Of a stretch of DNA of 64,000 bases, positions 35,794 to 54,012 are shown one piece after another. The stretch is from positions 1,178,001 through 1,242,000 of the forward strand of contig JADJBR010000007.1 in NCBI GenBank assembly GCA_016703645.1, given 5' to 3'. Both the position numbers and the translations under genes were made by a program. Source of the DNA: Zoogloea sp. GTDB taxonomy: Bacteria; Pseudomonadota; Gammaproteobacteria; Burkholderiales; Rhodocyclaceae. Each line of letters opens with the position of its first letter. Within the stretch, counting starts at the first letter, position 1. The notes beneath the pieces were generated by a model that saw only the letters and a program-made list of their open reading frames with translations, ran no database searches and was not told the origin of the DNA.

Positions 35794-37017
35794 ATGAGAC
35801 TGACTGAACTCAACATCAGCCATTACAAGAGCGTTGAGAGCGTCGACCTGCAGGACATTTCCCCCATCACTGTGCTGGTGGGCTGCAACGGAGCGGGCAA
35901 GAGCAATGTCGTCGATGTGCTGCGCTTCCTCCGTGATGCCGTCACCCAGGGACTTGATCACGCGGTTAGCAAGCGGGGCGGTATTGGTCTGATTCGGCAA
36001 TATTCACCGAGCAAGCCTTACCGAGTTACGCTCGAATTCCATTTTCATGACGAGGAGTTCGCTGCGCCAGTCAGCTATCAGATCGTCCTGACCAGCCTGC
36101 GCGAAGGCGATTTCCGCGTCGAGCGTGAAACAGGTCGTTGGGTTGCGCATACCGACTTCGCGTTCACCGATGAAGGTGAGCTCGTTGAGGCCATGCCAAG
36201 CCTCATGAGTTTCGAGCGTAACGCGGCAGGCAAATTTGAACTGCGGCTGGATGGTCGTGAAATCAAGTCGGACAGCCCACGGACCTTTCCCCCTGACGGT
36301 TTGGCGCTCGGCCATCGCTTCATCACGGACCGTGTGCCCGTCGGTGGCGTGCTTGGCGGCTCATCGCTGATTGACTTCATCAGCAACATCCGCTTCTCCT
36401 CCATCTACCCCAACACCTTACGCCAGCCTGCACATCCCGATACCGATCTGGTGCTGAAGGAAAACGGCGCCAACTGGTCCTCCATCCTGCGCCACCTGCG
36501 CAAGACGGCACGGGGGCGCCAGGCTCTTGATCAGATCAAGGAGATGATGCAGGTCGTGATGCCCCAGCTTGAGGACATCTCGACACAAGCTGTTGGTGGC
36601 TTCATCCATCCCCGCTTCAAGGTCAGAGAGGCAAACGGCAAGGTCCATTACTTCGACCCCTCCCAGATCTCCGACGGCACCCTGCGCATCCTTGGCATCC
36701 TTCTGGCGCTGTACAACACGCCTCACCCCAGCCTGATGGTCATTGAGGAACCGGAGCAGACGGTCAATCCCGCGCTCCTCGCGCTGCTCGTCGACGCCTT
36801 CCGCGAATCATCGGAGCGGACGCAGCTTTTCATCACCAGCCACAGCCCCCACCTGGTGGATCTCTTTCCGGCTGAAGCCATCCGCGTCGTGGACATGCGG
36901 GATGGGCAGACACGGGTCAGCCCGATCCGGGCCAGCCAGCAGGCTGCCATCAAGGAACACCTGCTCAGCGTGGAACAGATCATGTCGACCGACGGACTGT
37001 TGCCGGAGGACGCCTAG
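35794..37017 (+). CDS. AAA ATPase (RecF/OLD-like AAA_21), first gene of a two-gene module
   Basis: This 407-residue protein has Walker A GCNGAGKS (residues 30-37) right after the N-terminal beta-strand (MRLTELNISHYKSVESVDL). The Walker B region LMVIEEPEQTVNPALLALLV and TSHSPHLVDLFPAEAIRVVD are typical of the AAA_21/OLD-type ABC-like ATPases. The stop overlaps the next gene by a single base (TAGTG), so the two are translationally coupled. Similar ATPase/TOPRIM pairs act in phage defence (for example PARIS AriA/AriB and AbiL). The function here is inferred. Confidence 0.85.
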   Translation: MRLTELNISHYKSVESVDLQDISPITVLVGCNGAGKSNVVDVLRFLRDAVTQGLDHAVSKRGGIGLIRQYSPSKPYRVTLEFHFHDEEFAAPVSYQIVLTSLREGDFRVERETGRWVAHTDFAFTDEGELVEAMPSLMSFERNAAGKFELRLDGREIKSDSPRTFPPDGLALGHRFITDRVPVGGVLGGSSLIDFISNIRFSSIYPNTLRQPAHPDTDLVLKENGANWSSILRHLRKTARGRQALDQIKEMMQVVMPQLEDISTQAVGGFIHPRFKVREANGKVHYFDPSQISDGTLRILGILLALYNTPHPSLMVIEEPEQTVNPALLALLVDAFRESSERTQLFITSHSPHLVDLFPAEAIRVVDMRDGQTRVSPIRASQQAAIKEHLLSVEQIMSTDGLLPEDA

Positions 37018-37589
37018 TGCGCCGATTGCTCATGATCGTGGAGGGGCACGGGGACGTCCGGGCCGTCCCTGTGCTGGTCCGTCGCATCCTGGAGAGTCAT
37101 GGCATATACGACGTTCAACTGCTCCCGCCCCAGCGTCGCGGCGAACACCCTTCGGTCAAGAGGCTGTTTGACAACTACTTTTTGGCTGCGATCAAGGACA
37201 ACGCAGCCATCCTCTGGATCATGGACTTTGACTCGAAAGAGTACGAATGTCCCTATATTGAAAGCAATGAGCTCCTGGCGCGTGCGCATGCGCTGCGTCC
37301 CGGCTGGCCGCTGAAGGTAGCCTTCCTGGTCAAGGAGTACGAGGCGCTGTTCCTGCACGATGAACAGGCGACCCGCGCGGTTTTCACGGACATTCCAAAG
37401 CAAGCGGAGTTTCCCGCAGTCCCGGAGGAGATCCGTGGTGCCAAGGAGTGGTTGAGTCACCTGCGGCCGTCCGGCATGGCCTACAAGGAATCCGTCCACC
37501 AGGAGAAAATCACTGCCCGCCTCGACCTCCATTTGTTACGGAGCGTTCCAAAGATTTCGCCCACCTGGAACGTGCTGTTCTACATCTGA
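37017..37589 (+). CDS. TOPRIM-fold protein, DUF4276-like, second gene of the module
   Basis: From a GTG at 37017 that overlaps the previous stop, the 190-residue protein begins MRRLLMIVEGHGDVRAVPVL, with the Glu of a TOPRIM fold. A hydrophobic strand ends in an acidic pair (AAILWIMDFDSKEYECPYIE), followed by FLVKEYEALFLHDEQA. This pattern fits the DUF4276 family, whose members pair with AAA ATPases in putative defence modules. The TOPRIM residues suggest a nuclease or primase-like activity. It is likely made in step with the ATPase. Confidence 0.8.
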   Translation: MRRLLMIVEGHGDVRAVPVLVRRILESHGIYDVQLLPPQRRGEHPSVKRLFDNYFLAAIKDNAAILWIMDFDSKEYECPYIESNELLARAHALRPGWPLKVAFLVKEYEALFLHDEQATRAVFTDIPKQAEFPAVPEEIRGAKEWLSHLRPSGMAYKESVHQEKITARLDLHLLRSVPKISPTWNVLFYI

Positions 37590-37648
37590 TCAACTCTCCG
37601 GTACCGGACTGATATGGTTCGCACCACACGCCCAGCGCGGGACCAGCT

Positions 37649-38887
37649 ATGAAGCGTCTTCTCGTCGGCCTGCTGGCCGGCCTCCTGCTCCTGCTGACTG
37701 CGGCTGTCCTGCTGGCCTTCCGGGCCATCCAGGACGAGCCGCTGGTCACCGGCGACGCCCCCGTATCGGCCGAAGACCTGAGCCGCGCCAAGGACCTGAT
37801 CCGGCGCAACGATCCGCGTCGCCTGAAGCGCGACGAATTCCGGGAAACCCGGGTGGCCGCCCGCGACCTGGAAACCCTGGTCAATCTCGCCGTGCGCCGG
37901 GGCCGCGCCACCGTCAATCTCGAGGAGGGTGCCGCAGAACTGCGCTACACCGCCGCCCTTCCCCCCACGCCGCTGGGGCGCTACCTCAACCTGCGCACCC
38001 GCGTGGTCACCGGCGCCGACGGTCCGGAGTTCCAGAAGGTTCGGGTCGGCTCCATCCCGGTACCCGGCAGCCTCTTCAGCGCCGCACTGCTCTATGCCTC
38101 ACGCCATTCCAGCCTGGCACCCGACCTGGAAATCCTGCGTAAGACCATCGACCAGGTGGCCATCACCCCGGGCGAACTGCGCCTGCGCTACACCTGGCAA
38201 CCGGAGCTTCTCGACTCGGCCCGCACCTACGCCCTCTCGCCGGAAGAGCGTGAGCGGCTGGCCGTCGCCCATGGGCGCCTGGTCGCCCGGATGGACAGCG
38301 CAGGGCAAGGGCGCCGCCAGATCCCCATTGCCGAAGTGCTCGGCCCCCTGCTCCAGGAAGCCGGCGGCATCGACAAGGATAGCGGCCGCCACTACCGGGA
38401 CACCTTGCTGGTCCTTGCCTTCCAGCTATCCGGACGCAACATCGCCCACCTGATCCCCGAGGCCCGCCAGTGGCCGCAGCCCCGCCCGCTGACCCTGACC
38501 CTGCGCGGGCGGCCCGATCTGGCCCAGCACTTCGTGGTCTCGGCGGCCCTCGCCGCCTGGGCGGGCGAACCCCTGGCCAGCGCCATCGGCCTGGGCAAGG
38601 AGGTGGACGATGCCCGTGGTGGCAGCGGCTTCTCGTTTGCCGATCTGGCCGCCGATCGGGCCGGCACGCGCCTGGGCGAGCTCGCCGTCGACAACCCCCG
38701 GCGGCTGGCCGCAGCCGTCAGCGGCGGGCTCACCGACGCCGGCTTGCTCCCCCCCATCACCGGCCTGCCCGAAGCCATGATGAGCAGCGAGTTCCAGCGT
38801 CGCTTCGGCGGTGTCGGCGCCCCTGCCTACCAGCGCATGAGTGACGAGATCGACCGGCGCATCGCCGCCCTCGCCCTGTTCCGCTGA
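37649..38887 (+). CDS. Membrane-anchored protein of unknown function
   Basis: This 412-residue protein has one N-terminal membrane helix (LLVGLLAGLLLLLTAAVLLA), then a long hydrophilic periplasmic part. It includes VRVGSIPVPGSLFSAALLYA and a C-terminal MMSSEFQRRFGGVGAPAYQR. Similar single-pass proteins of unknown role exist in betaproteobacteria, but I cannot name a family. It ends seven bases before the first Wadjet-type gene, so it could be cotranscribed with it. Nothing in it resembles a Wadjet component. Confidence 0.7.
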   Translation: MKRLLVGLLAGLLLLLTAAVLLAFRAIQDEPLVTGDAPVSAEDLSRAKDLIRRNDPRRLKRDEFRETRVAARDLETLVNLAVRRGRATVNLEEGAAELRYTAALPPTPLGRYLNLRTRVVTGADGPEFQKVRVGSIPVPGSLFSAALLYASRHSSLAPDLEILRKTIDQVAITPGELRLRYTWQPELLDSARTYALSPEERERLAVAHGRLVARMDSAGQGRRQIPIAEVLGPLLQEAGGIDKDSGRHYRDTLLVLAFQLSGRNIAHLIPEARQWPQPRPLTLTLRGRPDLAQHFVVSAALAAWAGEPLASAIGLGKEVDDARGGSGFSFADLAADRAGTRLGELAVDNPRRLAAAVSGGLTDAGLLPPITGLPEAMMSSEFQRRFGGVGAPAYQRMSDEIDRRIAALALFR

Positions 38888-38894
38888 GCCTCCC

Positions 38895-40238
38895 ATGACC
38901 GAAGTCCGTCTGGAAGAGCTGCTGGCCCCGGGCGTCGTCGCCGACGACGTGCCCGAACTCGCCCCCCTGCTCAAGGCCCGGCCATTGCTGTCCGCCTTCA
39001 GCACCCTGTTCCACGGCAGTGAGGCCGAGGTGCTGATGCGCCTCCTGGTGCTGCGGGAAATCGGCCGCGAGACCGACTCGCCACGCTGGGGTCCGGAGCA
39101 ACTGCGCCAGCGCTTCGCCTTCCTCGACCCGGTCAAGCTCGAGACAGTGCTGCGCAGGCTGCGCGGCAACGGCCTGCTGGAGATCGGCGACGACAGCCTC
39201 TATGCCCTGTCCGACCTGGGCCGCAACGCCGTCGCCGCCATCGGCATGCTGGTCAGCTTCAGCACCGAGGACGATCTGGAGCTGGGCTTCCTCACCGCCC
39301 AGCTGGCCGGCCTGCAGGCCGTGGGCAGCGTCACCCCGGAGGCCCTGGGCCATCTGCTCGGCAAACTCAACGACCTGGCCTGGCATTTCGAGGATGCCAT
39401 CGCCTCGGGCTCCGAGTTCCGCATCGCCGACGCCCGCCGGCGCCTCTCCGCCAATACCCGCTGGATCGAGCGCGGCACCGAAGTCATGGCCGGGCTGCTG
39501 GCTGATCCGGAGGTGCCCTTCGACCTGGCCCGGGTCGCCCAGCGCATCGGCCTGGCCCAGTCCCGCCTGGCCCGGGTGGACGCCGCCTTCCAGCGCGCCC
39601 TCAACAAGATCGAGGCCCAGCGGGTCACCCTGGGCGGCTCGGGTATCTCCTCCAGCGACGTGGCCGGCTGGCTGCGCCGCCTGGATGGCCCGGCCCTGGC
39701 CGAACTCGCCACCGGCGCCCTTTCCATGGCGCCGGAGCTGACCCTGCTGGCGGGCGGCCACGAACTCCTCGACCGGGCCGAGCTGGCCCTCTCCGACGAA
39801 GCCCGCCGGATCGAGGCCGACACCGCCCTGCCCCCCGCCGAGGACGCCCCCAGCAACCGCGCCCCCGAGCAGGAAGATCTGCGCCTGCTGCAACACTTCA
39901 GTCAACGCCTGGCCCGTCTGGCCGAGCCGGGCAGCACCCCGGCGCCCCTGGCCAGCCTGGTGGCCGGCAGCGGCTTCCCGGCGGCGTCCTACCGCCTGTC
40001 CCTCCTTGCCCTGCTGGCCGACGGTGGCGACGAAGGCGGCGCCACCCCCGCCGACGGCCCCATTGGCGAATTCATGCGCCTGCCCCTCGACGTGCTGTTC
40101 GAGGCGGGCACCGTCAAGGTCGGTGAGGACGAGATCGCCGCCATGTCCACGGGTCTGGTGGGCGCCAAGGGCAGCCTGCCGGCCGCCGAAGTCGTCCCCA
40201 TCCTCGACGCCACCGACTCCTTCTCGGACCCCGCCTGA
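38895..40238 (+). CDS. jetA: Wadjet-type JetA-like (MksF/kleisin-like) protein
   Basis: This 447-residue, largely helical protein has an N-terminal winged-helix-like part (WGPEQLRQRFAFLDPVKLET, then VLRRLRGNGLLEIGDDSLYA). Long helices follow (HLLGKLNDLAWHFEDAIASG). It holds the JetA/MksF position: directly before a short JetB-like gene whose ATG overlaps its stop (TGATG), then an SMC-type ATPase and a TOPRIM gene. JetA is the kleisin that closes the SMC ring. The sequence itself gave no strong motif, so the name rests on order, size and composition. Confidence 0.75.
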   Translation: MTEVRLEELLAPGVVADDVPELAPLLKARPLLSAFSTLFHGSEAEVLMRLLVLREIGRETDSPRWGPEQLRQRFAFLDPVKLETVLRRLRGNGLLEIGDDSLYALSDLGRNAVAAIGMLVSFSTEDDLELGFLTAQLAGLQAVGSVTPEALGHLLGKLNDLAWHFEDAIASGSEFRIADARRRLSANTRWIERGTEVMAGLLADPEVPFDLARVAQRIGLAQSRLARVDAAFQRALNKIEAQRVTLGGSGISSSDVAGWLRRLDGPALAELATGALSMAPELTLLAGGHELLDRAELALSDEARRIEADTALPPAEDAPSNRAPEQEDLRLLQHFSQRLARLAEPGSTPAPLASLVAGSGFPAASYRLSLLALLADGGDEGGATPADGPIGEFMRLPLDVLFEAGTVKVGEDEIAAMSTGLVGAKGSLPAAEVVPILDATDSFSDPA

Positions 40239-40927
40239 TGGAACAACAGATCCGGACCCTCACCGCCCGCCTGCTGGCCAACCGCAGCCTGCCCCGCAGC
40301 GACGCCCTGGTACGCCGCGCCTTGGTGGACGAAGCCTTCCGCGTTGATCTCGACGCCCGCCTTGGCGCCGTCGGGCTTCAACTCATCGACAACCCCTACG
40401 CCGAGCACGTCGCCGTGGCCCTGGCCGAGGACGTCCACGAACCGGTGTTCGGCGCCAGCCGCGAATACGCCGCCAGCAATGCCGGCCTGACCCGCGACCA
40501 GCTCGCCCTGCTGGTGGTGATCTGGGCCCTGATCATCCTGCCCAAGCGCGAACGTCAGGTGAATCGCCAACGCCTCGCCGATGACGGCCAGGAAGACATG
40601 TTCGGCAAGGATGGCCCCCTGGAACACGGTGAGGGCGTCTCCGGCGCCCTGTCCGAGGCATCCCTGCTGGCCGACTTTGCCCCCGTGCTCGGCCACAAGA
40701 CCTACGTGCAGGGCAAGCTCCTGTCGCGCCTGGCCCAGCTCGGCTTCATCGAACGCAAGGGCGGCATGATCCACGAAGGCCCGCTCCTCGACGTGCTCCT
40801 CGACTACCGCCTGCTGGCCGACCGCATCATCTACGGCACCCTTGGCGAAGTTCTCACCCGGGCCGGCCATCCGCCCCCCGCCGGTGATGCCTTCACGCCC
40901 CCCGAAGACACCGCCGAGGACGACTGA
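40238..40927 (+). CDS. jetB: Wadjet-type JetB-like (MksE/KITE, DUF4194-like) protein
   Basis: This 229-residue protein has two winged-helix-like regions (RDQLALLVVIWALIILPKRE, then VQGKLLSRLAQLGFIERKGG). The second half fits the KITE subunit of bacterial condensins. Its ATG overlaps the JetA-like stop, and JetC follows after two bases. The DUF4194 family of Wadjet is the best match in pattern and size. It would bind the kleisin and help ring closure. Confidence 0.8.
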   Translation: MEQQIRTLTARLLANRSLPRSDALVRRALVDEAFRVDLDARLGAVGLQLIDNPYAEHVAVALAEDVHEPVFGASREYAASNAGLTRDQLALLVVIWALIILPKRERQVNRQRLADDGQEDMFGKDGPLEHGEGVSGALSEASLLADFAPVLGHKTYVQGKLLSRLAQLGFIERKGGMIHEGPLLDVLLDYRLLADRIIYGTLGEVLTRAGHPPPAGDAFTPPEDTAEDD

Positions 40928-40929
40928 GC

Positions 40930-43731
40930 ATGTTCCACATCAAGCAACTCGAACTGGTCCACTGGGACTACTGGCGGCGCTTCAACCTGCCCCTGGACGC
41001 CCAGATCATCACCATCGTCGGCCCCAACGGCTCCGGCAAGACCACCCTGCTCGATGCCCTGCGCACCCTCTTTGGCCTGCGCTGCTCGGGCAAGCGCGAC
41101 TTCCGCCGCTACGTGCGCCGGGCCAACCGCAGCTTCGCGTGGATCCGTGCGGTGGTGGCCAACCGCCCCGGCAGCACCGGCAAACGCCCCTTCTTTCCGT
41201 GCCTGAAGGACGAAGTCACCCTGGCCTGCCGCATCCGCCGCGCCGGTGGCGACTGGACCCGGGACTACGCCATCGCCGACGGCGACCTGCCCATCGAGGC
41301 CCTGGAGGCCAACGAGGACAAGGCCGTGGAATGGGTCGGCTACCGGGACTACCAGAGCCGCCTGGCCTGGGGCGGCCTCACCCCCGCCATCGCCAAGGTG
41401 CTGGCCCTGGAACAGGGCGACACGGACAAGCTCTGCGAATACTCCCCCAAGGCCCTGCTGGAGCTGGTCTTTGACGTCTTCGGGGACAAGGAGGTGCTGG
41501 ACAACTACGCCGCCGCGCGGGAAGAACAGAACAACGCCGAGAAGGAGCTGGCCGCCCTTGGCCTCGACCTGGACCGCCTGCGCGCCCAGGCGGAAACCAA
41601 GCGCCTGGAGGCCGACCGCTACCTGGAATGGAAGCAGCTCGACGACGAAGCCCGTGCCCTCGCCGCCGAGATCGTGCCGCGACTGGAAGTCGCCGAACTC
41701 CTCCGCGACATCGCCCAGGCCCGGGACGACATCGCCCGCGGGCGCAGCGAGCGCCAGAAAAGCGAGGACGAACTGAACGCCCAGCGCGCACGCAGCGCCG
41801 GTGTGGAAGCCGAAAAGGCCACCGCCGAAGCCGAACGCAAGGCCGCCCGCAGCCGCGACCTGGAGGCCGAAGAGCAACATCGCAATGCCCTGATTCAGGT
41901 GCATGACTGCGACAAACTCCTGGCCGAGCGCACCGCCCTGCGCGCCCGCCTGGCCCGCGAGGCCGGCGACGCCGCCGTGGACCTGGAAGCCGACTACGCC
42001 AGGGCAGATGCCCGCCTGGTCCACCTGCAGCGCCAGGAACGCGAAGCCATCGCCGCCTTCGAAGAGCGGACCGCCCAGCTACGCGCCACCCGCGATCACC
42101 GTGGCCCGCCCGCCGACGGCGAAGTGAGCCGCTTCCGCAACCGTCTGAGAGAAGCCGGCATTGCCCATCGGGCCCTCGCCGAGATCGTCGAAGTCACCGA
42201 CCCCGACTGGCAGGGCGCCGTCGAGGCCGTGCTGCGGCCCTACCGCCACGTGATCCTGCTGGAACGGGAGCAGGACCGCCACGCCGCCTGGGGCCTGGGC
42301 GAGCAGGAACGCTTCCGCCACTTCATCGTGCCCGAACTCGAAACGGCGCCCCCTGCCACCCGCGGATCCCTGGCCGAGGTCATCCGCTTTGCCGACGCCG
42401 TGCCCCGCTGGCTCGCCGACCTCCTCAACCGCATCCAGCGGGTCGAAGACGCCGACGCCGCCCGCCAGCTCCCCCGGGAAACCGAGTGGATCACCCGCGA
42501 CGGCTACCACCGGGAACGCCGGGGCGCCCGCCACCTGGGCAAGCCCGCCGAGTTCCACTTTGGCGAACTGGCCCGCAAGGCACGCCTCAAGCAATGTGAA
42601 GCCGACATGCACAGCATCGACGCCCGCCTGCGGGAGATCCGCCCCCAACTCGACGCGGCCAAGGAAGAAGCCGACGCCCTGCGCGCCCGCCTCCACGGCA
42701 TCGAGGCCGCCCAGCTTCTGGCCGCCCGGGCAACCGACTTCGAGGCTGCCGAGAACACCCTGCCCGCCGCCCGCGCCCGCCTGACCCAGGCCATTGCCGA
42801 CCGGGCCGACGCCAAGGGCGACGTGGACCGCATCGACCAATCCCTGCGCGGCATCGAAATCGAACTGGATCGCCGCCGCCGGGACATGGCCGGCCTCGCC
42901 GCACGGGTCAATCAACTGACCGCCGAAGCCGCCCCCCGTCGCCACGACCAGGCCAATCGCATCCAGCGCCTGCGTCGCGTGCGCCGGGGCATGCCTGCCG
43001 ACTGGCGCGACCCCGCCGCCAATGCCCTGCTGGCCGACAAGTACGACGGCGCCCGCGGTGCCCGCGCCGAGCTGGAACGCCTGCGCCAGCGCCTGGCCAA
43101 CGGCGACTGGGTGACTGACGACACGGTGCTCACCCTGGCTGGCCGCCTCAAGGCCGATGTGCTCGACCGGGAAAGCCAATACGCCGAACGGGAGCGCCAC
43201 TGCAATGCCGCCCGACGCATCACCGGTGAAGCCCGCGCCGCCTACATCGCCAAACTCCGCGCCACCGTGCGCCAGTACGGCAAGAACCTGCGCGCCCTCG
43301 GCGATCTGGCCAACGTGGACGTGGACTGCCCGGTTCCCCTGCTCGACAACGACGACCGGGCGCTCGCCGCCGCCGGCCTGGAAGTGCGCTTCGACTTTGA
43401 CCGCAAGGGCGCCGTGGGCCTCAACGACGGCGAAGCCTCGGGCGGCCAGCAGGTCATGAAATCCCTGATCCTGCTCATCGCCCTGCTGATGGACGAGGCC
43501 CGCCCCGGCGGTTTCGTCTTCATCGACGAGCCCTTCGCCCACCTGGACATCGCCAACATCGACCGGGTCGGCACCTTCCTGCGCGCCACCCGCGCCCAGT
43601 ACCTGATCACCACCCCGGTCACCCACAACGCCAACGTCTTCGCCCCGGCCCAGCTCACCCTGGTCACCCGCAAGAAGAAACCCGGCGACGACTGGGCCCC
43701 GCCCATCGGGCTGATCCAGCGCAGCCTCTAG
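40930..43731 (+). CDS. jetC: Wadjet-type JetC-like SMC ATPase
   Basis: This 933-residue SMC-like ATPase has Walker A GPNGSGKT at 31-38. Two long coiled-coil arms surround a hinge-like insert near 415-560 (IVEVTDPDWQGAVEAVLRPY). The ABC signature is GEASGGQQVMKSLIL near 835-845, and Walker B is FVFIDEPFAHLD near 862-873. It is the motor of the Wadjet/MksB condensin, which extrudes DNA loops. The protein is somewhat shorter than typical JetC (about 1100). It is the third of four tightly packed genes. Confidence 0.9.
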   Translation: MFHIKQLELVHWDYWRRFNLPLDAQIITIVGPNGSGKTTLLDALRTLFGLRCSGKRDFRRYVRRANRSFAWIRAVVANRPGSTGKRPFFPCLKDEVTLACRIRRAGGDWTRDYAIADGDLPIEALEANEDKAVEWVGYRDYQSRLAWGGLTPAIAKVLALEQGDTDKLCEYSPKALLELVFDVFGDKEVLDNYAAAREEQNNAEKELAALGLDLDRLRAQAETKRLEADRYLEWKQLDDEARALAAEIVPRLEVAELLRDIAQARDDIARGRSERQKSEDELNAQRARSAGVEAEKATAEAERKAARSRDLEAEEQHRNALIQVHDCDKLLAERTALRARLAREAGDAAVDLEADYARADARLVHLQRQEREAIAAFEERTAQLRATRDHRGPPADGEVSRFRNRLREAGIAHRALAEIVEVTDPDWQGAVEAVLRPYRHVILLEREQDRHAAWGLGEQERFRHFIVPELETAPPATRGSLAEVIRFADAVPRWLADLLNRIQRVEDADAARQLPRETEWITRDGYHRERRGARHLGKPAEFHFGELARKARLKQCEADMHSIDARLREIRPQLDAAKEEADALRARLHGIEAAQLLAARATDFEAAENTLPAARARLTQAIADRADAKGDVDRIDQSLRGIEIELDRRRRDMAGLAARVNQLTAEAAPRRHDQANRIQRLRRVRRGMPADWRDPAANALLADKYDGARGARAELERLRQRLANGDWVTDDTVLTLAGRLKADVLDRESQYAERERHCNAARRITGEARAAYIAKLRATVRQYGKNLRALGDLANVDVDCPVPLLDNDDRALAAAGLEVRFDFDRKGAVGLNDGEASGGQQVMKSLILLIALLMDEARPGGFVFIDEPFAHLDIANIDRVGTFLRATRAQYLITTPVTHNANVFAPAQLTLVTRKKKPGDDWAPPIGLIQRSL

Positions 43732-43744
43732 CGCATCACCGCCC

Positions 43745-44956
43745 ATGGACTGGAGCCCTCCCGATGGCGACGGTGTGTGCACCCTGCGGCTGGACGACCC
43801 GCTGCGCGCCAGCCTGAAGGGCCAGCGTCGCCTCCGGCGGGGAGCACCGCAGCCACTGGACCTGGACGCCTGGCCCACGGACGAACGGCAGCTCCTGGCG
43901 GGCTGGGTGAAGCGCGCATCCGACAAGGCGGTGCGTCACGACACCCTGCTGCGCGCCGCAGGCCCCCATCGGGCCATGCTCGCGGATCGCCTGCTTGACC
44001 TCCTGCTGCACGCCGGGGCCATCGAGATCGAGGAATGCCATGAGCGCGGGCACTGGTGGCCCCGGCAACTCCGCTTTCTCGACCCGGCCGCCTTGCGCCG
44101 CGTGCTCGGCGTCCCCGAACCCGATGCCGACAAGAACCGATGGGATCAGGCGCGCCAGCGGTGCTTCACCCACCCGGAACTCGATCTGGCGGCCCAAGCC
44201 CTCGACGCCCTGCCGCCGGCCCGCGCCCTGGCACGCCATGGGCTGCTGGTCGCCCTGGAAGCCTGGCAGGAGCAGCAGCGCAGCGGTACCTGGCGCGATT
44301 TCTCCCACTTCGCCCGGGGTGACACCAAGCAGATCAGTGATACCGAGAAGACCTGGCTGAGCAGCGCCCTCAGCCTGGACGATTTCGGCATCAGCGACCA
44401 TACCCCCTTGCTGCTGGTGCGCCTTCCCACGTCTGTCGCCCTCTCTGGCGGAACATGGCCCCTGGGGCTTGTGCCCGACTTCGTCGCCCTGACGCCGGCG
44501 ACGATCAATGCCATGAGCGCCGCCACCGGGGCGCCAAGCGCCTGGAGGCTGGTGGAAAATCGCACCAGCTTCGAGCGGGTCGCCCGCGCCTGCGGGCCTG
44601 CCGAGGCGGTCCTGTGGCTGCCCGGCTATCCTCCATCCTGGTGGCGCCGCAGCGTTACCCGACTGCTCGACCTTCTACCGGCCCCCGCATGGATCGCCTG
44701 CGACCCGGACCCCGACGGCATCGCCATCGCATTGCAGGCGGGCCAGCTATGGACCGCAGCGGGGCTGGTGTGGCAGCCCTGGCGGATGGACCCGGCCGAT
44801 TTCGATTCGCTCCCGGCGAAGCGGCCCCTGTCCGGACGCGATCAGTCCCTGCTCGACCGGCTCGAAGTCGAGGCCCCTCTCCCGCCGATGCTCGCCGCAC
44901 TGGCCCGGACGCTGCGCATCCAACAGCTGAAAGGCGAGCAGGAGGGCTATCTCTGA
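43745..44956 (+). CDS. jetD: Wadjet-type JetD-like TOPRIM nuclease (DUF3322/DUF2220)
   Basis: This 403-residue protein has an N-terminal DUF3322-like arm. The C-terminal TOPRIM-type domain shows a catalytic Glu in WRLVENRTSFERVAR (Glu271) and the Asp triad CDPDPDG (Asp320, 322, 324). Such a domain, shared with topoisomerase VI and known from JetD, cleaves DNA after the condensin has extruded a small circle. It follows JetC by 13 bases. It supports assigning the operon as a Wadjet-like plasmid-defence system. Confidence 0.9.
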   Translation: MDWSPPDGDGVCTLRLDDPLRASLKGQRRLRRGAPQPLDLDAWPTDERQLLAGWVKRASDKAVRHDTLLRAAGPHRAMLADRLLDLLLHAGAIEIEECHERGHWWPRQLRFLDPAALRRVLGVPEPDADKNRWDQARQRCFTHPELDLAAQALDALPPARALARHGLLVALEAWQEQQRSGTWRDFSHFARGDTKQISDTEKTWLSSALSLDDFGISDHTPLLLVRLPTSVALSGGTWPLGLVPDFVALTPATINAMSAATGAPSAWRLVENRTSFERVARACGPAEAVLWLPGYPPSWWRRSVTRLLDLLPAPAWIACDPDPDGIAIALQAGQLWTAAGLVWQPWRMDPADFDSLPAKRPLSGRDQSLLDRLEVEAPLPPMLAALARTLRIQQLKGEQEGYL

Positions 44957-48725: not shown

Positions 48726-49676
48726 ATGAAACTCCGCCTCGCCGCCGCCATCGCCCTGTCCATGGGCATGAGCCCGGCCTTCGCCCTGAACATCCTCCTG
48801 TCCAACGACGACGGTCTGACCAGCAACATCAAGGCGCTCTACGATGCCCTCAAGGCCAACGGCCACGACGTGATCGTCTCGGTACCGTGCTCGGGCCAGA
48901 GCGGCCGCGGCGCGGCCATTGTGATGTACAGCACCGCCACCATCATTGCCGACAACGACAAGACCCAGATCGAGGCCGAGGGTGGCTGCCACAATGGCGC
49001 GGCGGCCATCGGAGCACCGGCCGTGGGCCCCTTCACCAAGGCCGGCTACACCGGCGGTGACTTTCACTACGTCCACGGCACCCCGGTGATGGCCACCATG
49101 TACGGCCTCGACGTGCTCGCCCCGGCGCGCTGGAACAAGGCCCCCGACCTGGTGCTGTCGGGCCCCAACGAAGGTTAGAACGTGGGTTGCGTGGTAGTCA
49201 GCTCCGGCACCATCGGCAACGCCCAGTTCGCCGCCGGACGCGGCGTCCCCGCCATCGCCCTGAGCGCCGGCACCGACACGGTGGACAACACCGGTCTGGC
49301 CAATCCCAACTCGGCCATCGTCGCCCAGCTCAGCGTCAAGCTCCTCAAGGCGCTCCAGGCCAAGGCCGGCAGTGGCGCCCTGCTGCCCGCCGGCGTGGCC
49401 CTCAACGTGAACTTCCCCAATGCCCCGACGGCCAATGTGGGCTGGGCCTTCTCGCGCCACGGCAGCTACGATCTCTACAACCTGAAGTTCAAGAACACCG
49501 TGCCCTACGGCATCGGTGCCGGTCTGCCGGCCACGGCAAGCGCCGAGCAGTCCGAGGACGAGGCCGTGGTCTTCAAGACCAAGGTGGCCGTCACCGCCAT
49601 GCAGGTCGGCTTCGACCACCGCCCGGCAGGGCAGCAATGGCTGCGCCTGCGCCTGCGCGATCTGCTGAACCAATAA
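48726..49676 (+). pseudogene. SurE-like 5'/3'-nucleotidase with in-frame amber codon
   Basis: From 48726 the frame encodes a signal peptide (MKLRLAAAIALSMGMSPAFA), then ILLSNDDGLTSNIKALYDAL, the SurE metal-binding start. GPNEG is followed by TAG at 49176-49178. Immediately past it the same frame continues as NVGCVVVSSGTIGNAQFAAG to 49676, so TAG replaces CAG (Gln) of the usual GPNEGQN. The full product would be about 316 residues. Either a recent nonsense mutation or a sequencing error has stopped it at codon 151. Confidence 0.85.
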
Positions 49677-50569: not shown

Positions 50570-52555
50570 ATGAAACTCCATGCCTTCGTGGCAATGCCCT
50601 TCGGCACCAAGCCGAACGACAAGGGTGAGCAGGTCGACTTCAACCGCATCTTCGATGAACTGATCAAGCCGGCCCTGGAGGATGCGGGGCTGGAGGTGCT
50701 GCGGGCCGACAAGGAGCAGCGGGCCGGCGACATCCGCCTGGACATGTTCCAGGAGCTGCTGATGGCCGATCTGGTGGTGGCCGACCTGAGCATCGACAAC
50801 CCCAACGTGTGGTACGAACTGGGCGTGCGCCATGCCCTGCGCGCCCGCGGGGTGGTCCTCGTCCAGGGGCCGCGCAGCACCAAGCCCTTCGACATCTATA
50901 CCGACCGCAAGCTGACCTACCACCTGAAGGACGGCGCACCCGACCCGGCCCATCTGGCCGCCGACCGCAAGGCCATCGCGGAGATGACCATCGCCACCCT
51001 GGCGGCCTGGCACGAACGCCCGGTGAGCCCGGTGTATGGCCTGCTCCCCAACCTGCTTGAGCCCGACTGGAAGCGCTTGCGCATCGGCGCCGTGCGGGAG
51101 TACTGGCATCGCCACGACGCCTGGGCTGCGCTTATCGAAAAAGCCCGCAAGGCCGGCCGGCCCGAGGATGTGCTGGTGCTGGCCGACGAGGCGCCGGTCA
51201 CCGCCCTGCGGGTGGAGGCCCGGCTCAAGGCCGGAACGGCCCTGCTCAAGGGCAGGCACTACAACTATGCCCTGGAGCAGTTCGAGCTGGCCCTCGGCTT
51301 CGACCCCGCCAACCTGGAGGCCGCCCGTCAGCGGGGCATCTGCCTGCAGCGCCTGAAGCGGCCGGACGATGCCCGGAGTGCCTACGAGGCCATCCTGGCC
51401 GAACACCCAGGTGATGTGGAAACCCTGTCGCTCCTTGCCCGCCTCGACAAGGACGCCTGGATGGACGCCTGGAACCACCCGGAGCACAGCCCGGCAAAGA
51501 AGTACGAAGACGCCACCTACGAAGAGGCCCTGCTGAAGGCTGCCATCGCCGGCTACGCCCGGGCTTTCCGCGCCGCACCGGGCCACTACTACTCGGGCAT
51601 CAATGCCGTCACCCTGATGCACCTCCACGGCCACCTCACCCATGAGGGCGAATTCGACGCCGAGGCCCGGGCCATGGCCGGCGGCGTGGCCTGGGCCGCA
51701 GCCTGCGAGCAGGCCCCGGCACAGCGTTTCTGGGCGGCTGCCACCCTGGGTGATCTGGCCGTGCTTCAGGGCAACGCCGAGGCGGTGAAGGATGCCTACC
51801 AGGCCGCCATCGCCCTGGCCGACAAGGACTGGTTTGCCCTGGACGCCTGCCTTGGCCAACTGCGCCTGCTGGCCAGCCTGGGCTTCCGGCCCGATGAAAC
51901 GGGCGTCGGCATCGCCACCTTCGAACGCGCCCTCACGCGGCTCAAGCCCCCCACCGAAAAGGGCTGGCAGCCACGCAAGGTGTTCCTGTTCTCCGGGCAC
52001 ATGATCGACAGCCCCACCCGCCCCACGCCCCGCTTCCCGGCCGACAAGGCGCCCCTTGCAGCCAAGGCCATTGCCGAGGCCCTGGCGCGACTCGACGCGG
52101 GCAAGGACGATCTCGCCATCACCCAGGGCGCTTCCGGTGGTGACCTGCTCTTTGCCGAAGCCTGCCTCGCCCTGGGCATGCATGTGCAGCTCCTGCTGCC
52201 CCTGCCCGAGGCCGACTTCATCGAGCAGTCCATCCTCCCGGCCGCCGATGGTGACGCCTGGCGCGACCGCTATTTCGCCGTGCGGGACCACGCCCTGACC
52301 CTTCCCAACCGGGTCATGCCGGAGGCGCTCGGCCCCCTTCCCACCAACGGCGAAGGCCAGCCGATGAGCGCCTTCGAGCGCTGCAACCTGTGGCTGCTGC
52401 ACAGCACCCTGTCCCTCGGCATCAAGCGCAGCCACCTGATATGCCTGTGGAACGGCGGCGGCGGTGACGGGCCCGGCGGCACCGAACACATGGTTCGTGA
52501 AGTGAAGAAACGCACCGGCCAGGTCATCTGGCTCGACACCCGCAAACTCTGGTAG
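50570..52555 (+). CDS. Nucleoside-deoxyribosyltransferase-like/TPR/SLOG-like multidomain protein
   Basis: This 661-residue protein has three parts. The N-terminus (about 1-110) opens MKLHAFVAMPFG and includes DLVVADLSIDNPNVWYELGV; this is the nucleoside 2-deoxyribosyltransferase/TIR-like fold, with a candidate catalytic Glu at 83. A TPR-like middle (about 215-430) resembles TRAFs-binding repeats. The C-terminal part (about 463-560) has RKVFLFSGHMIDSPTRPTPR and LAITQGASGGDLLFAEACLA, typical of SLOG-type nucleotide-binding Rossmann domains. A patatin phospholipase gene follows by 26 bases. Comparable domains act as makers or sensors of nucleotide signals in bacterial immunity. Function inferred. 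Confidence 0.82.
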   Translation: MKLHAFVAMPFGTKPNDKGEQVDFNRIFDELIKPALEDAGLEVLRADKEQRAGDIRLDMFQELLMADLVVADLSIDNPNVWYELGVRHALRARGVVLVQGPRSTKPFDIYTDRKLTYHLKDGAPDPAHLAADRKAIAEMTIATLAAWHERPVSPVYGLLPNLLEPDWKRLRIGAVREYWHRHDAWAALIEKARKAGRPEDVLVLADEAPVTALRVEARLKAGTALLKGRHYNYALEQFELALGFDPANLEAARQRGICLQRLKRPDDARSAYEAILAEHPGDVETLSLLARLDKDAWMDAWNHPEHSPAKKYEDATYEEALLKAAIAGYARAFRAAPGHYYSGINAVTLMHLHGHLTHEGEFDAEARAMAGGVAWAAACEQAPAQRFWAAATLGDLAVLQGNAEAVKDAYQAAIALADKDWFALDACLGQLRLLASLGFRPDETGVGIATFERALTRLKPPTEKGWQPRKVFLFSGHMIDSPTRPTPRFPADKAPLAAKAIAEALARLDAGKDDLAITQGASGGDLLFAEACLALGMHVQLLLPLPEADFIEQSILPAADGDAWRDRYFAVRDHALTLPNRVMPEALGPLPTNGEGQPMSAFERCNLWLLHSTLSLGIKRSHLICLWNGGGGDGPGGTEHMVREVKKRTGQVIWLDTRKLW

Positions 52556-52581
52556 CCCTTCCCCTCCGAAAGGACACATCC

Positions 52582-54012
52582 ATGCCCCTGTCCATCGCCG
52601 AACGCATCAAAGCCCCCGGCCCCAAGAAGATCCTCTCCTGCGACGGCGGAGGCATACTGGGCCTCATGAGTGTCGAGATCCTGGCCAGACTGGAAGCCGA
52701 CCTCCGCGCCGAACAGGGGAATCCGGATCTCCTGCTCTGCGACTATTTCGACCTTGTCTGCGGCACCAGCACCGGCGCCATCATGGCCGCCTGCATTTCG
52801 GCCGGCATGAGCACGGACCAGCTACGCACCTTCTACAGGAACAGCGGCAGGCAGATGTTCGACAAGGCCTCCCTGTTCAAGCGCCTGCACTATTCCTACA
52901 ACAAGGAGCCCCTGGCCAGGAAACTGCAGGCGGAGTTCAGCGCTGCCCTGGGCGCCGACACCACCCTGGGCAGCCCGGGCCTGCGCTCGGTGCTGATGAT
53001 GGTGATGCGCAACGCCACCACCGACTCCCCCTGGCCGGTGAGCAACAACCCTTTTGCCAAGTACAACCAGCGCGACCGGGACGACTGCAACCTGGAGCTG
53101 CCCCTGTGGCAACTGGTGCGGGCCAGCACCGCCGCACCCACCTTCTTTCCGCCCGAAGTGGTGACCCTCGGCAAGGGAAAGAAGGCTTACACCTTCGTCT
53201 TCGTGGATGGGGGCATCACCACCTACAACAACGCCGCCTTCCTGGCCTACCAGATGGCCACCGCCGCGCCCTATCACATCAACTGGAAGACCGGCACCGA
53301 TCAGCTTCTGATCGTCTCGGTGGGCACGGGAAGTGCCCCTGCAGCCCGACCCGACCTGCAGCCGGGTGACATGTGGCTGGTGGATAACGCCAAGACCCTG
53401 CCCGGCGCCCTGATGAATGCCGCCAGCGCCGGATGGGACATGGCCTGTCGGCTGGTGGGCGAGTGCCGCTTCGGTCGCCCCATCGACCGGGAGATCGGTG
53501 ACATGATCGGTGCTGCCACCTCAACCGGCGCCAAGCAATTCGCCTATGTGCGCTACGACCCGGACGTCAGCCAGGCCGGCCTCGACACCCTGGGCCTGCC
53601 CCATGTCAAATCGGCGGATGTCCAGACGCTGGACTCCATCGACTTCATCCCGCAGATCCAGGCCGTGGGCGTGGCCTACGCGGCAGCGCACGTGAAAACG
53701 GCGGAGCACCTGCGCGGCTTCCTTTCAAGTCGTGGGATGCGTGCCCTCGGCAGGCAAGGGGGCGAACGTGGTAGATCACGCAGGTTCCACGGGCAATGTA
53801 GGGGCACATCAGGCGCAAGCGCCGTCCGGCCAGCCCCGGGGCCACCGCGCGCAACAGGCGGGCCACCAGCAGGACCTCAGGTGCCGTCGTCACCGCAGTG
53901 CACAGCAGCTTGCGCATCCCCGGGTGCACGCCAGGGGCGGCTCGTCCTCGCACTGGATGGCCACGTTGCCATGAAAACAATCAAAGGCCTGCCCGAGCAG
54001 GGAATCCACTAG
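52582..54012 (+). CDS. Patatin-like phospholipase, CapV-like
   Basis: The protein carries the oxyanion motif DGGGILG (21-27), the nucleophile GTSTGA (Ser63) and the catalytic Asp in VDGGITTYNN (Asp209). This is the full patatin dyad, and the layout is that of CapV-type phospholipases. It probably degrades membrane lipid. The recognisable domain ends near residue 380. From about 53727 to the stop at 54012 the translation is antisense to a broken YkgJ-like gene, so the true C-terminus seems replaced. It follows the NDT/SLOG-like gene by 26 bases, which suggests a shared operon and function. Confidence 0.87.
   Translation: MPLSIAERIKAPGPKKILSCDGGGILGLMSVEILARLEADLRAEQGNPDLLLCDYFDLVCGTSTGAIMAACISAGMSTDQLRTFYRNSGRQMFDKASLFKRLHYSYNKEPLARKLQAEFSAALGADTTLGSPGLRSVLMMVMRNATTDSPWPVSNNPFAKYNQRDRDDCNLELPLWQLVRASTAAPTFFPPEVVTLGKGKKAYTFVFVDGGITTYNNAAFLAYQMATAAPYHINWKTGTDQLLIVSVGTGSAPAARPDLQPGDMWLVDNAKTLPGALMNAASAGWDMACRLVGECRFGRPIDREIGDMIGAATSTGAKQFAYVRYDPDVSQAGLDTLGLPHVKSADVQTLDSIDFIPQIQAVGVAYAAAHVKTAEHLRGFLSSRGMRALGRQGGERGRSRRFHGQCRGTSGASAVRPAPGPPRATGGPPAGPQVPSSPQCTAACASPGARQGRLVLALDGHVAMKTIKGLPEQGIH

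Follow-up and report, generated by a model that had tools for sequence, protein, structure and literature searches.

A DRHyd-TPR-S-SLOG protein encoded beside a CapV-like patatin in Zoogloea: a candidate modular conflict device with changing partner enzymes

In a 64,000-nucleotide stretch of a Zoogloea sp. genome (contig JADJBR010000007.1; the whole stretch is called the window here), we found two genes 26 bases apart (gap 52556-52581), both confirmed as open reading frames (ORFs) on the + strand. Gene 1 encodes a protein with two nucleotide-type domains around a helical TPR-S scaffold and gene 2 encodes a patatin phospholipase. An earlier note on this DNA had described gene 1 as a nucleoside deoxyribosyltransferase (NDT)/TIR-like N-terminus followed by TPR-like repeats and a SLOG-like C-terminus, and this description is borne out by Pfam, profiles and a fold match. 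The features of the pair are:

50570..52555, + strand: gene 1, 661 amino acids, DRHyd/NDT-like domain, TPR-S scaffold and SLOG domain (ORF, Pfam, AlphaFold2)
50570..51004, + strand: DRHyd (NDT/TIR-like) domain, residues 1-145 (N-domain profile to DNPH1/Rcl; weak Pfam)
50816..50818, + strand: codon of Glu83, the predicted catalytic glutamate (conservation; alignment with the DNPH1 YELG glutamate)
51197..51889, + strand: TPR-S/TRAFs-binding helical region, about residues 210-440 (Pfam PF20308 and PF13281; all-helical in the model)
51965..52552, + strand: SLOG domain, residues 466-661, motifs GGD (523-525) and GGT (636-638) (motif conservation, hhalign, fold match)
52582..53724, + strand: conserved part of gene 2, patatin phospholipase, 381 amino acids (Pfam; AbCapV and patatin-17 fold matches; dN/dS)
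52768..52770, + strand: codon of Ser63, the GxSxG nucleophile (31/31 aligned patatins)
53206..53208, + strand: codon of Asp209, the catalytic aspartate of DGG (31/31 aligned patatins)
53725..54012, + strand: 95 further codons of the gene 2 frame, not conserved and outside the family (patatin alignment; DNA comparison)

In gene 1, the TPR-S domain (PF20308) covers residues 231-350 (Pfam, E = 1.2e-15; 58.3 bits, above the curated cut-off of 27.6), and there is a MAP3K TRAFs-binding domain (PF13281) at E = 3.7e-9. The AlphaFold2 model (mean predicted local distance difference test score, pLDDT, 88.4; predicted template modelling score, pTM, 0.84) has an alpha/beta N-terminal domain, an all-helical middle and an alpha/beta C-terminal domain; residues 49-55, in the DRHyd domain, have pLDDT below 50. 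A BFVD fold search with the whole model returned a DprA-like phage protein (E = 3.8e-3, TMt 0.68), a viral nucleoside deoxyribosyltransferase (E = 1.1e-2, TMt 0.54), a CMP/hydroxymethyl-CMP hydrolase (2.4e-4, TMt 0.39) and many TPR proteins; these are matches of the whole model, and we infer which single domain each belongs to. TPR proteins dominate the list of Foldseek matches in the PDB. A profile comparison found no link between gene 1's own DRHyd and SLOG domains.

To describe conservation, we used an alignment of 52 full-length gene 1 relatives and a wider set of 27 N-terminal domains. Glu83, which the earlier note had singled out as a catalytic-type residue, is conserved in 52/52 of the former and 26/27 of the latter, the exception being L101. 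The match of the profile built from the 27 N-domains to the DNPH1/Rcl 2'-deoxynucleotide N-hydrolases is marginal (E = 0.015); it aligns NVWYELG to VGYELG, and the YELG glutamate that falls on Glu83 is the DNPH1 nucleophile. Pfam matches in this region are weak: Nuc_deoxyrib_tr reaches only 0.2 for the window copy and TIR_2 is found in 10/27 N-domains (best 0.0027), and gene 1 has no Pfam match to DUF4062 at E 0.1. PADLOC labels residues 22-117 as a TIR effector (7.6e-8). By its sequence, gene 1 carries the conserved glutamate in a YELG-type motif that marks NDT/DRHyd N-glycosidases.

In the C-terminal domain, the GGD motif is kept in 52/52 full-length relatives and the GGT motif almost as strictly (G636 in 52/52, G637 in 51/52, T638 in 50/52). 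GG-type pocket motifs on a DprA/LOG-like Rossmann fold are what define the SLOG superfamily, and gene 1 has both if the DprA-like match is placed on this domain. The C-domain profile also matches the L122 gene, which lies upstream of the patatin in genome G502 (hhalign probability 95.9) and encodes a SLOG-SLATT protein (Pfam SLATT_1, 3.7e-10; a weak YpsA-type SLOG match, YAcAr, 0.0066). Weak Pfam YAcAr matches are present in 6/25 C-domain members. The same profile found no sequence relative in the PDB and did not match the one ThsA-type STALD protein compared (0.2%). The YAcAr protein L142 was rejected as a SLOG relative, its profile match being confined to the last 30 columns (82.6%). In LOG enzymes the characteristic glutamate lies in PGGxGTxxE; the corresponding position is methionine (M641) in 49/52 relatives, and the absence of the glutamate there favours SLOG as a sensor over SLOG as a hydrolase. 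Stand-alone SLOG genes close to the gene 1 SLOG were seen in L089, L090, L091, L092 and L094, with no match to a partner profile in the nearby DNA examined.

Gene 2 as called runs from 52582 to 54012 on the + strand. It contains a patatin domain (Pfam, E = 6.4e-23) and matches the PADLOC CBASS phospholipase profile (2.1e-39). Ser63 and Asp209, reported earlier as intact in a gene 26 bases downstream, are both invariant across the 31 rows of a patatin alignment that includes the window copy. In fold, the patatin model (pLDDT 81.6) is similar to patatin-17 (6.0e-18) and to the cGAMP-bound AbCapV filament (8zr9; Foldseek E = 2.6e-17, template modelling scores 0.66/0.73); sequence matches between gene 2 and CapV cover the catalytic core only. 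The earlier extent of gene 2 holds for the conserved 381 amino acids and fails for the last 95 codons (53725-54012), which are absent from the other 30 rows. The patatin of relative L004, 98% identical, stops at residue 381, where DNA homology to the window ends, and the extension has no DNA homology in L004, L005, L006 or L009. The ratio of nonsynonymous to synonymous substitution rates (dN/dS) of gene 2 against L004 is 0.08, which indicates that the gene is under constraint, and purifying selection acts on gene 1 and the patatin alike. At patatin residue 26 (52657-52659), which we take to be the usual Arg of the DGGGxRG loop, Leu is present in 17/31 rows including the window and Arg in 14. 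A phage-borne origin is not supported: among 67 patatin relatives on viral contigs the best identity is 30% (42% only over about 70 residues), the viral contigs hold a single gene 1 relative matched over residues 2-120 only, and plasmid and phage records yielded no match that reaches 80% coverage of gene 1.

To ask how often the two genes occur together, we examined 81 loci, namely the window and the best 80 of 245 gene 1 relatives from one scan of genome contigs. A patatin on the same strand lies within 150 bp of gene 1 in 29/81 loci (27/75 among loci with at least 1,300 bases downstream), and a patatin is found anywhere in the locus DNA examined in 40/81. Looking out from the patatin, we found that 12 of 150 family-level genomes have one at E 1e-50 or better, and in 10 of these 12 (G000, which is the window genome, G133, G012, G018, G024, G026, G028, G049, G086, G091) a DRHyd, TPR-S or SLOG gene is no more than 1 kb away. 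In G093 this distance is 4.2 kb, and in G140 the gene about 1 kb from the patatin encodes a different SLOG (cluster 2, 1.5e-44) and is followed by a TIR gene. At the class level (369 genomes), 10 genomes have a patatin, 8 have a gene 1 match (3 of these, G177, G215 and G398, over SLOG only) and 5 have both, so that the co-occurrence proposed as a check in the earlier note is present (Fisher p = 2.5e-7, or 5.7e-6 when the window genome is left out). Six of the 10 class-level patatins (G000, G396, G215, G312, G363, G502) have a gene of one of these three kinds within 1 kb, the neighbour in G502 being the divergent SLOG-SLATT gene; in G426 and G503 a TIR gene is next to or near the patatin and the gene 1 relative is 14 kb away or on another contig. 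Adjacency of gene 1 and patatin is thus confirmed to be more than chance, and the link is tight when viewed from the patatin. The earlier proposal of a predicted nucleotide-type sensor or maker coupled to a CapV-like patatin is supported, as is a conserved association of the two. Related patatins in L121 (6550-8113) and L123 (2214-3987) are followed by a small conserved gene (a weak PGDYG match in L121) and no SLOG, maybe another pairing.

The domains of gene 1 are not always on one chain. In G086 and G026, SLOG, patatin and DRHyd-TPR-S are three adjacent genes in that order (TPR-S confirmed by Pfam in G086), and in G215 the order is SLOG, patatin, TIR, with no TPR-S or DRHyd match in the 18 kb examined. 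One stretch of a Rhizobium leguminosarum plasmid carries SLOG, DRHyd-TPR-S, SLATT, muramidase, patatin, DRHyd-TPR-S and TIR, and G028 has DRHyd-TPR-S-SLOG, patatin, caspase and hydrolase-CHAT genes consecutively. A plasmid of Rhodococcus sp. JS3073 (NZ_CP113952.1) carries, in this order, a TIR-nSTAND1-WD40 gene, a DRHyd-TPR-S gene and a SLOG-patatin fusion. This last is a single 560-amino-acid ORF with SLOG in front and patatin behind, and it overlaps the end of the DRHyd-TPR-S gene by 11 bases. The fusion is 36% identical to the window SLOG over 99 residues and 42% identical to the window patatin over 380. Since SLOG is on the sensor protein in the window and on the lipase in Rhodococcus, the SLOG boundary moves from one to the other.

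To identify which other enzymes accompany gene 1, we tallied same-strand partners within 6.5 kb on either side at the 62 loci with at least 5 kb downstream. Patatin is the only partner in 18 loci and caspase/CHAT the only one in 17; 8 have patatin with TIR/STAND, 3 TIR/STAND only, 2 patatin with caspase/CHAT, 1 caspase/CHAT with TIR/STAND, 1 all three and 12 none. The count of loci with no partner among all 81 is 19, which overstates the lack because some contigs are short, and the TIR/STAND profiles, built from few seeds, miss for example the cluster-3 (WD40-type) neighbour of L008. The caspase motifs are intact (His in 17/18, Cys in 18/18), and the strict CHAT motifs are each present in 11/16. 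The locus L026 has a SIR2-TIR protein and an nSTAND1-WD40 protein (Pfam); the order TIR-STAND-WD40 comes from inspection of L007 by eye, and Pfam and profile matches bear it out at the Rhodococcus locus. In L013 there is a caspase-fold peptidase (Pfam, 1.4e-24) and a 1,821-amino-acid protein with hydrolase-type regions, CHAT and its own terminal TPR-S (residues 1576-1693, 3.4e-11). Proteins of this cluster (L013:10930-16395 and its relatives, 22 loci), about 1,800 amino acids long and often beside a caspase gene, are an uncharacterised large effector.

The TPR-S end of the L013 protein suggests a shared assembly platform, and with it a scaffold that works without a small molecule: TPR-S would recognise a phage or host protein and recruit or cluster the adjacent effector. 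Animal ASK kinases use a related TRAFs-binding region as a protein scaffold, and the partner enzymes come from unrelated families, as such a platform would allow. The gene 1 TPR-S profile did not match the CHAT proteins, so TPR-S there is a Pfam assignment for L013 only. We consider this explanation quite unlikely, as it leaves aside the two nucleotide-type domains of gene 1, whose motifs are conserved (Glu83 and GGD, both 52/52), and the G215 locus, where SLOG stands beside the patatin with neither TPR-S nor DRHyd.

The partners also change along the gene 1 tree, which spans Pseudomonadota, Nitrospirota, Cyanobacteriota, Chlorobiota, Acidobacteriota, Ignavibacteriota, Myxococcota and Thermodesulfobacteriota. 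By a quick tree method, the patatin-only label changes 15 times (at least 13 of these forced by well-supported branches) and the caspase/CHAT label 9 times; all eight partner labels together need 35 changes, compared to 47.5 for shuffles. Linkage to effector genes thus varies between genomes, as is characteristic of the TPR-S family. This exchange with caspase, CHAT and TIR-STAND bears on another account of the pair, that it has no part in immunity and serves the housekeeping turnover of lipids or nucleotides. In the window, the pair is indeed flanked by ordinary genes (SurE-like, PQQ dehydrogenase). Such a role is nevertheless very improbable, given the exchange of partners, the patchy distribution (a gene 1 match at E 1e-50 in 19/150 family genomes, 8 of the 19 over SLOG only, and in several phyla) and neighbours elsewhere that include a TOTE primase-helicase (L080) and SLATT (L084).

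We favour the reading, at a probability of about 0.5, that the pair is a modular TPR-S-type conflict (immune-like) device in which SLOG would be the ligand-sensing switch of the phospholipase, probably fed by the DRHyd glycosidase. Gene 1 would detect an insult through its TPR-S scaffold. The DRHyd domain, using Glu83, would then cleave the glycosidic bond of NAD+ or a (deoxy)nucleotide to give the base and a ribosyl or ADP-ribosyl product, as family membership and residue conservation suggest. This product or a related nucleotide would be bound by SLOG and would switch its conformation or oligomeric state, a step consistent with the fold-level match and the GGD and GGT motifs. SLOG may gate the patatin directly, a coupling to which adjacency, the split genes and one natural fusion lend support, and the patatin, whose lipase activity is predicted from the intact dyad and CapV-like fold, would hydrolyse membrane phospholipids and stop the cell, and with it the infection. 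Elsewhere the same sensor would drive a caspase, a hydrolase-CHAT protein or TIR-STAND, which replace or join the patatin. The occurrence of the same sensor beside different killer enzymes suggests a modular self-sacrifice immune circuit made from parts common to animal cell-death proteins. A tentative extension is that one protein both makes the signal (DRHyd) and reads it (SLOG) and drives unrelated executioners, sometimes several per cell, as a multi-effector signalosome predating the ASK scaffold, in which the SLOG-gated lipase would be a counterpart of CapV that needs no CD-NTase.

Several observations weigh against this reading, and the first of them is that gene 1 is often without the patatin. 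No patatin was found in the locus DNA examined (short in some) at 41/81 gene 1 loci, and 17/62 loci have caspase/CHAT with neither patatin nor TIR/STAND. In the Zoogloea relatives L005 and L006 (88% and 86% identity) the patatin is cleanly absent, with flanks aligned on both sides; because the more distant Zoogloea relative L009 has it, the absence is probably a loss. An obligate two-gene system is thus ruled out and the pair is more modular than the earlier note supposed; gene 1 homologues do occur regularly without the patatin, which that note had named as grounds for refuting its reading. We saw no relaxed selection on gene 1 after the absence (dN/dS 0.15 for L005-L006, compared to 0.17 for the patatin-bearing L010-L011), so gene 1 must act without the patatin there, unless a patatin lies elsewhere in the genome. 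In addition, gene 1 and patatin distances correlate moderately (Mantel r = 0.35, with 1 of 9,999 permutations as high, for 35 of the 40 patatin-bearing loci; L007, L013, L037, L049 and L080 were excluded because the match was short or far), and in two of the 10 class-level patatin genomes, G280 and G345, the DNA examined shows neither a DRHyd, TPR-S or SLOG gene nor a TIR gene near the patatin. The SLOG-patatin fusion is a single record: of 7 matching plasmid-collection records, the one that covers the whole fusion is the fusion itself. As to the domains, the likeness to DNPH1 is marginal, the full-length relative L101 lacks Glu83, and with no sequence match to the ThsA-type STALD protein a cADPR-type ligand is not indicated by sequence. 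The functional link is not refuted by gene 1 copies that lack the patatin, because the linkage centred on the patatin is tight and a SLOG-patatin fusion exists.

The persistence of gene 1 without the patatin is also consistent with the main rival explanation, in which DRHyd itself would kill as an NADase, as Swarozyc DUF4062 does, SLOG would sense a nucleotide made elsewhere, and the patatin would be a parallel effector. In the excerpts of PMC13174449 that treat them, DUF4062 proteins with a conserved Glu are executioners that kill by NAD+ depletion, and the conserved Glu of gene 1 is like that of such TIR-like NADases. The TIR genes beside the patatin in G426 and G503, where the gene 1 match is distant, could supply the signal. 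In contrast, Rhodococcus has DRHyd as a separate protein and SLOG on the lipase, so that the output of SLOG there would be the lipase, and the model, with pLDDT below 50 at residues 49-55, cannot settle the substrate. We regard this rival as unlikely.

The reading of SLOG as a lipase switch can be compared to known systems. The TPR-S family is predicted to sense an NAD+-derived signal. Burroughs and Aravind (2020, J Bacteriol) are reported to have predicted that proteins of TPR-S architecture act as immune components, and gene 1 resembles these components in PF20308, in its TIR/DRHyd/SLOG-type nucleotide domains and in its variable effectors. According to excerpts from Aravind and colleagues, TIR, DrHyd and SLOG form one nucleotide-binding and -processing class with many members in immunity (PMC9503650; related PMC7159879, PMC8195603). 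In CBASS with CapV/CapE, CapV is a ligand-gated phospholipase; the patatin fold and Ser-Asp dyad are shared, and a nucleotide-gated lipase would be the shared working idea. CBASS differs in that the CapV sequence match covers the core only and the SMODS CD-NTase profile has 0 matches in the window genome (SMODS was the CD-NTase profile tried), which agrees with the earlier report of no CD-NTase. Among the 15 of 21 patatin genomes searched, 1 has SMODS matches, on other contigs. With no SMODS CD-NTase in the operon or in G000, CBASS membership is rejected.

In Thoeris (ThsB TIR with ThsA SIR2-SLOG), a TIR/NDT-class enzyme is paired with a SLOG sensor that switches an effector, as would be the case here; as excerpts of PMC11204291 describe it, the effector-fused SLOG of ThsA is a 3'cADPR pocket that activates the effector, an arrangement resembling SLOG on the Rhodococcus patatin. 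Thoeris differs in that the effector here is a lipase, not SIR2, and that DRHyd and SLOG share one chain; gene 1 has no SIR2 (Pfam) and STALD was not found in G000, TM-macro being outside that search. Swarozyc shares an NDT/TIR-like domain with a conserved Glu, as described in the portions of PMC13174449 on this family, and differs in that gene 1 lacks DUF4062 and carries TPR-S and SLOG, with a separate lipase. The N-terminal region of animal ASK (MAP3K5) is alike in the TRAFs-binding match of gene 1, and gene 1 has SLOG and no kinase. The module would work like Thoeris or CBASS and is neither. The statement that no named system has this pair holds for the literature searched, of incomplete coverage, where TPR-S, patatin and SLOG were never found together, nor SLOG, patatin, TIR and defense; it needs the qualification that the TPR-S architecture itself is said to have been predicted before. 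Gating of a patatin by SLOG, together with the exchange of effectors, would seem to be a new form of these computationally predicted TPR-S systems.

Elsewhere in the window, a SurE-family gene at 48726-49676 is interrupted by an in-frame stop, which leaves two ORFs (48726-49178 and 49182-49676); in relative L004 it is one 316-amino-acid ORF. At 35794-44956 there is a possible second conflict locus with an AAA_21 ATPase (HEC-01A profile, 3e-86) and DUF4276, followed by three ORFs without a Pfam or PADLOC match, an SMC-like ATPase (JetC, 2e-29) and a DUF2399/JetD-like protein. The locus is Wadjet-like; a complete Wadjet was rejected, as JetA and JetB were not recognised.

If the reading of the pair is right, it would extend NAD/nucleotide-signal immunity by a lipase branch independent of any cyclic-dinucleotide synthase, and the Rhodococcus fusion would allow the claim of a SLOG-switched lipase to be tested with a single purified protein. 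It would also show that one sensor scaffold can be connected to killers as different as a lipase, a caspase, CHAT or TIR-STAND, and the family would offer a small ancestor-like system for the ASK/TRAFs-binding region of animals.

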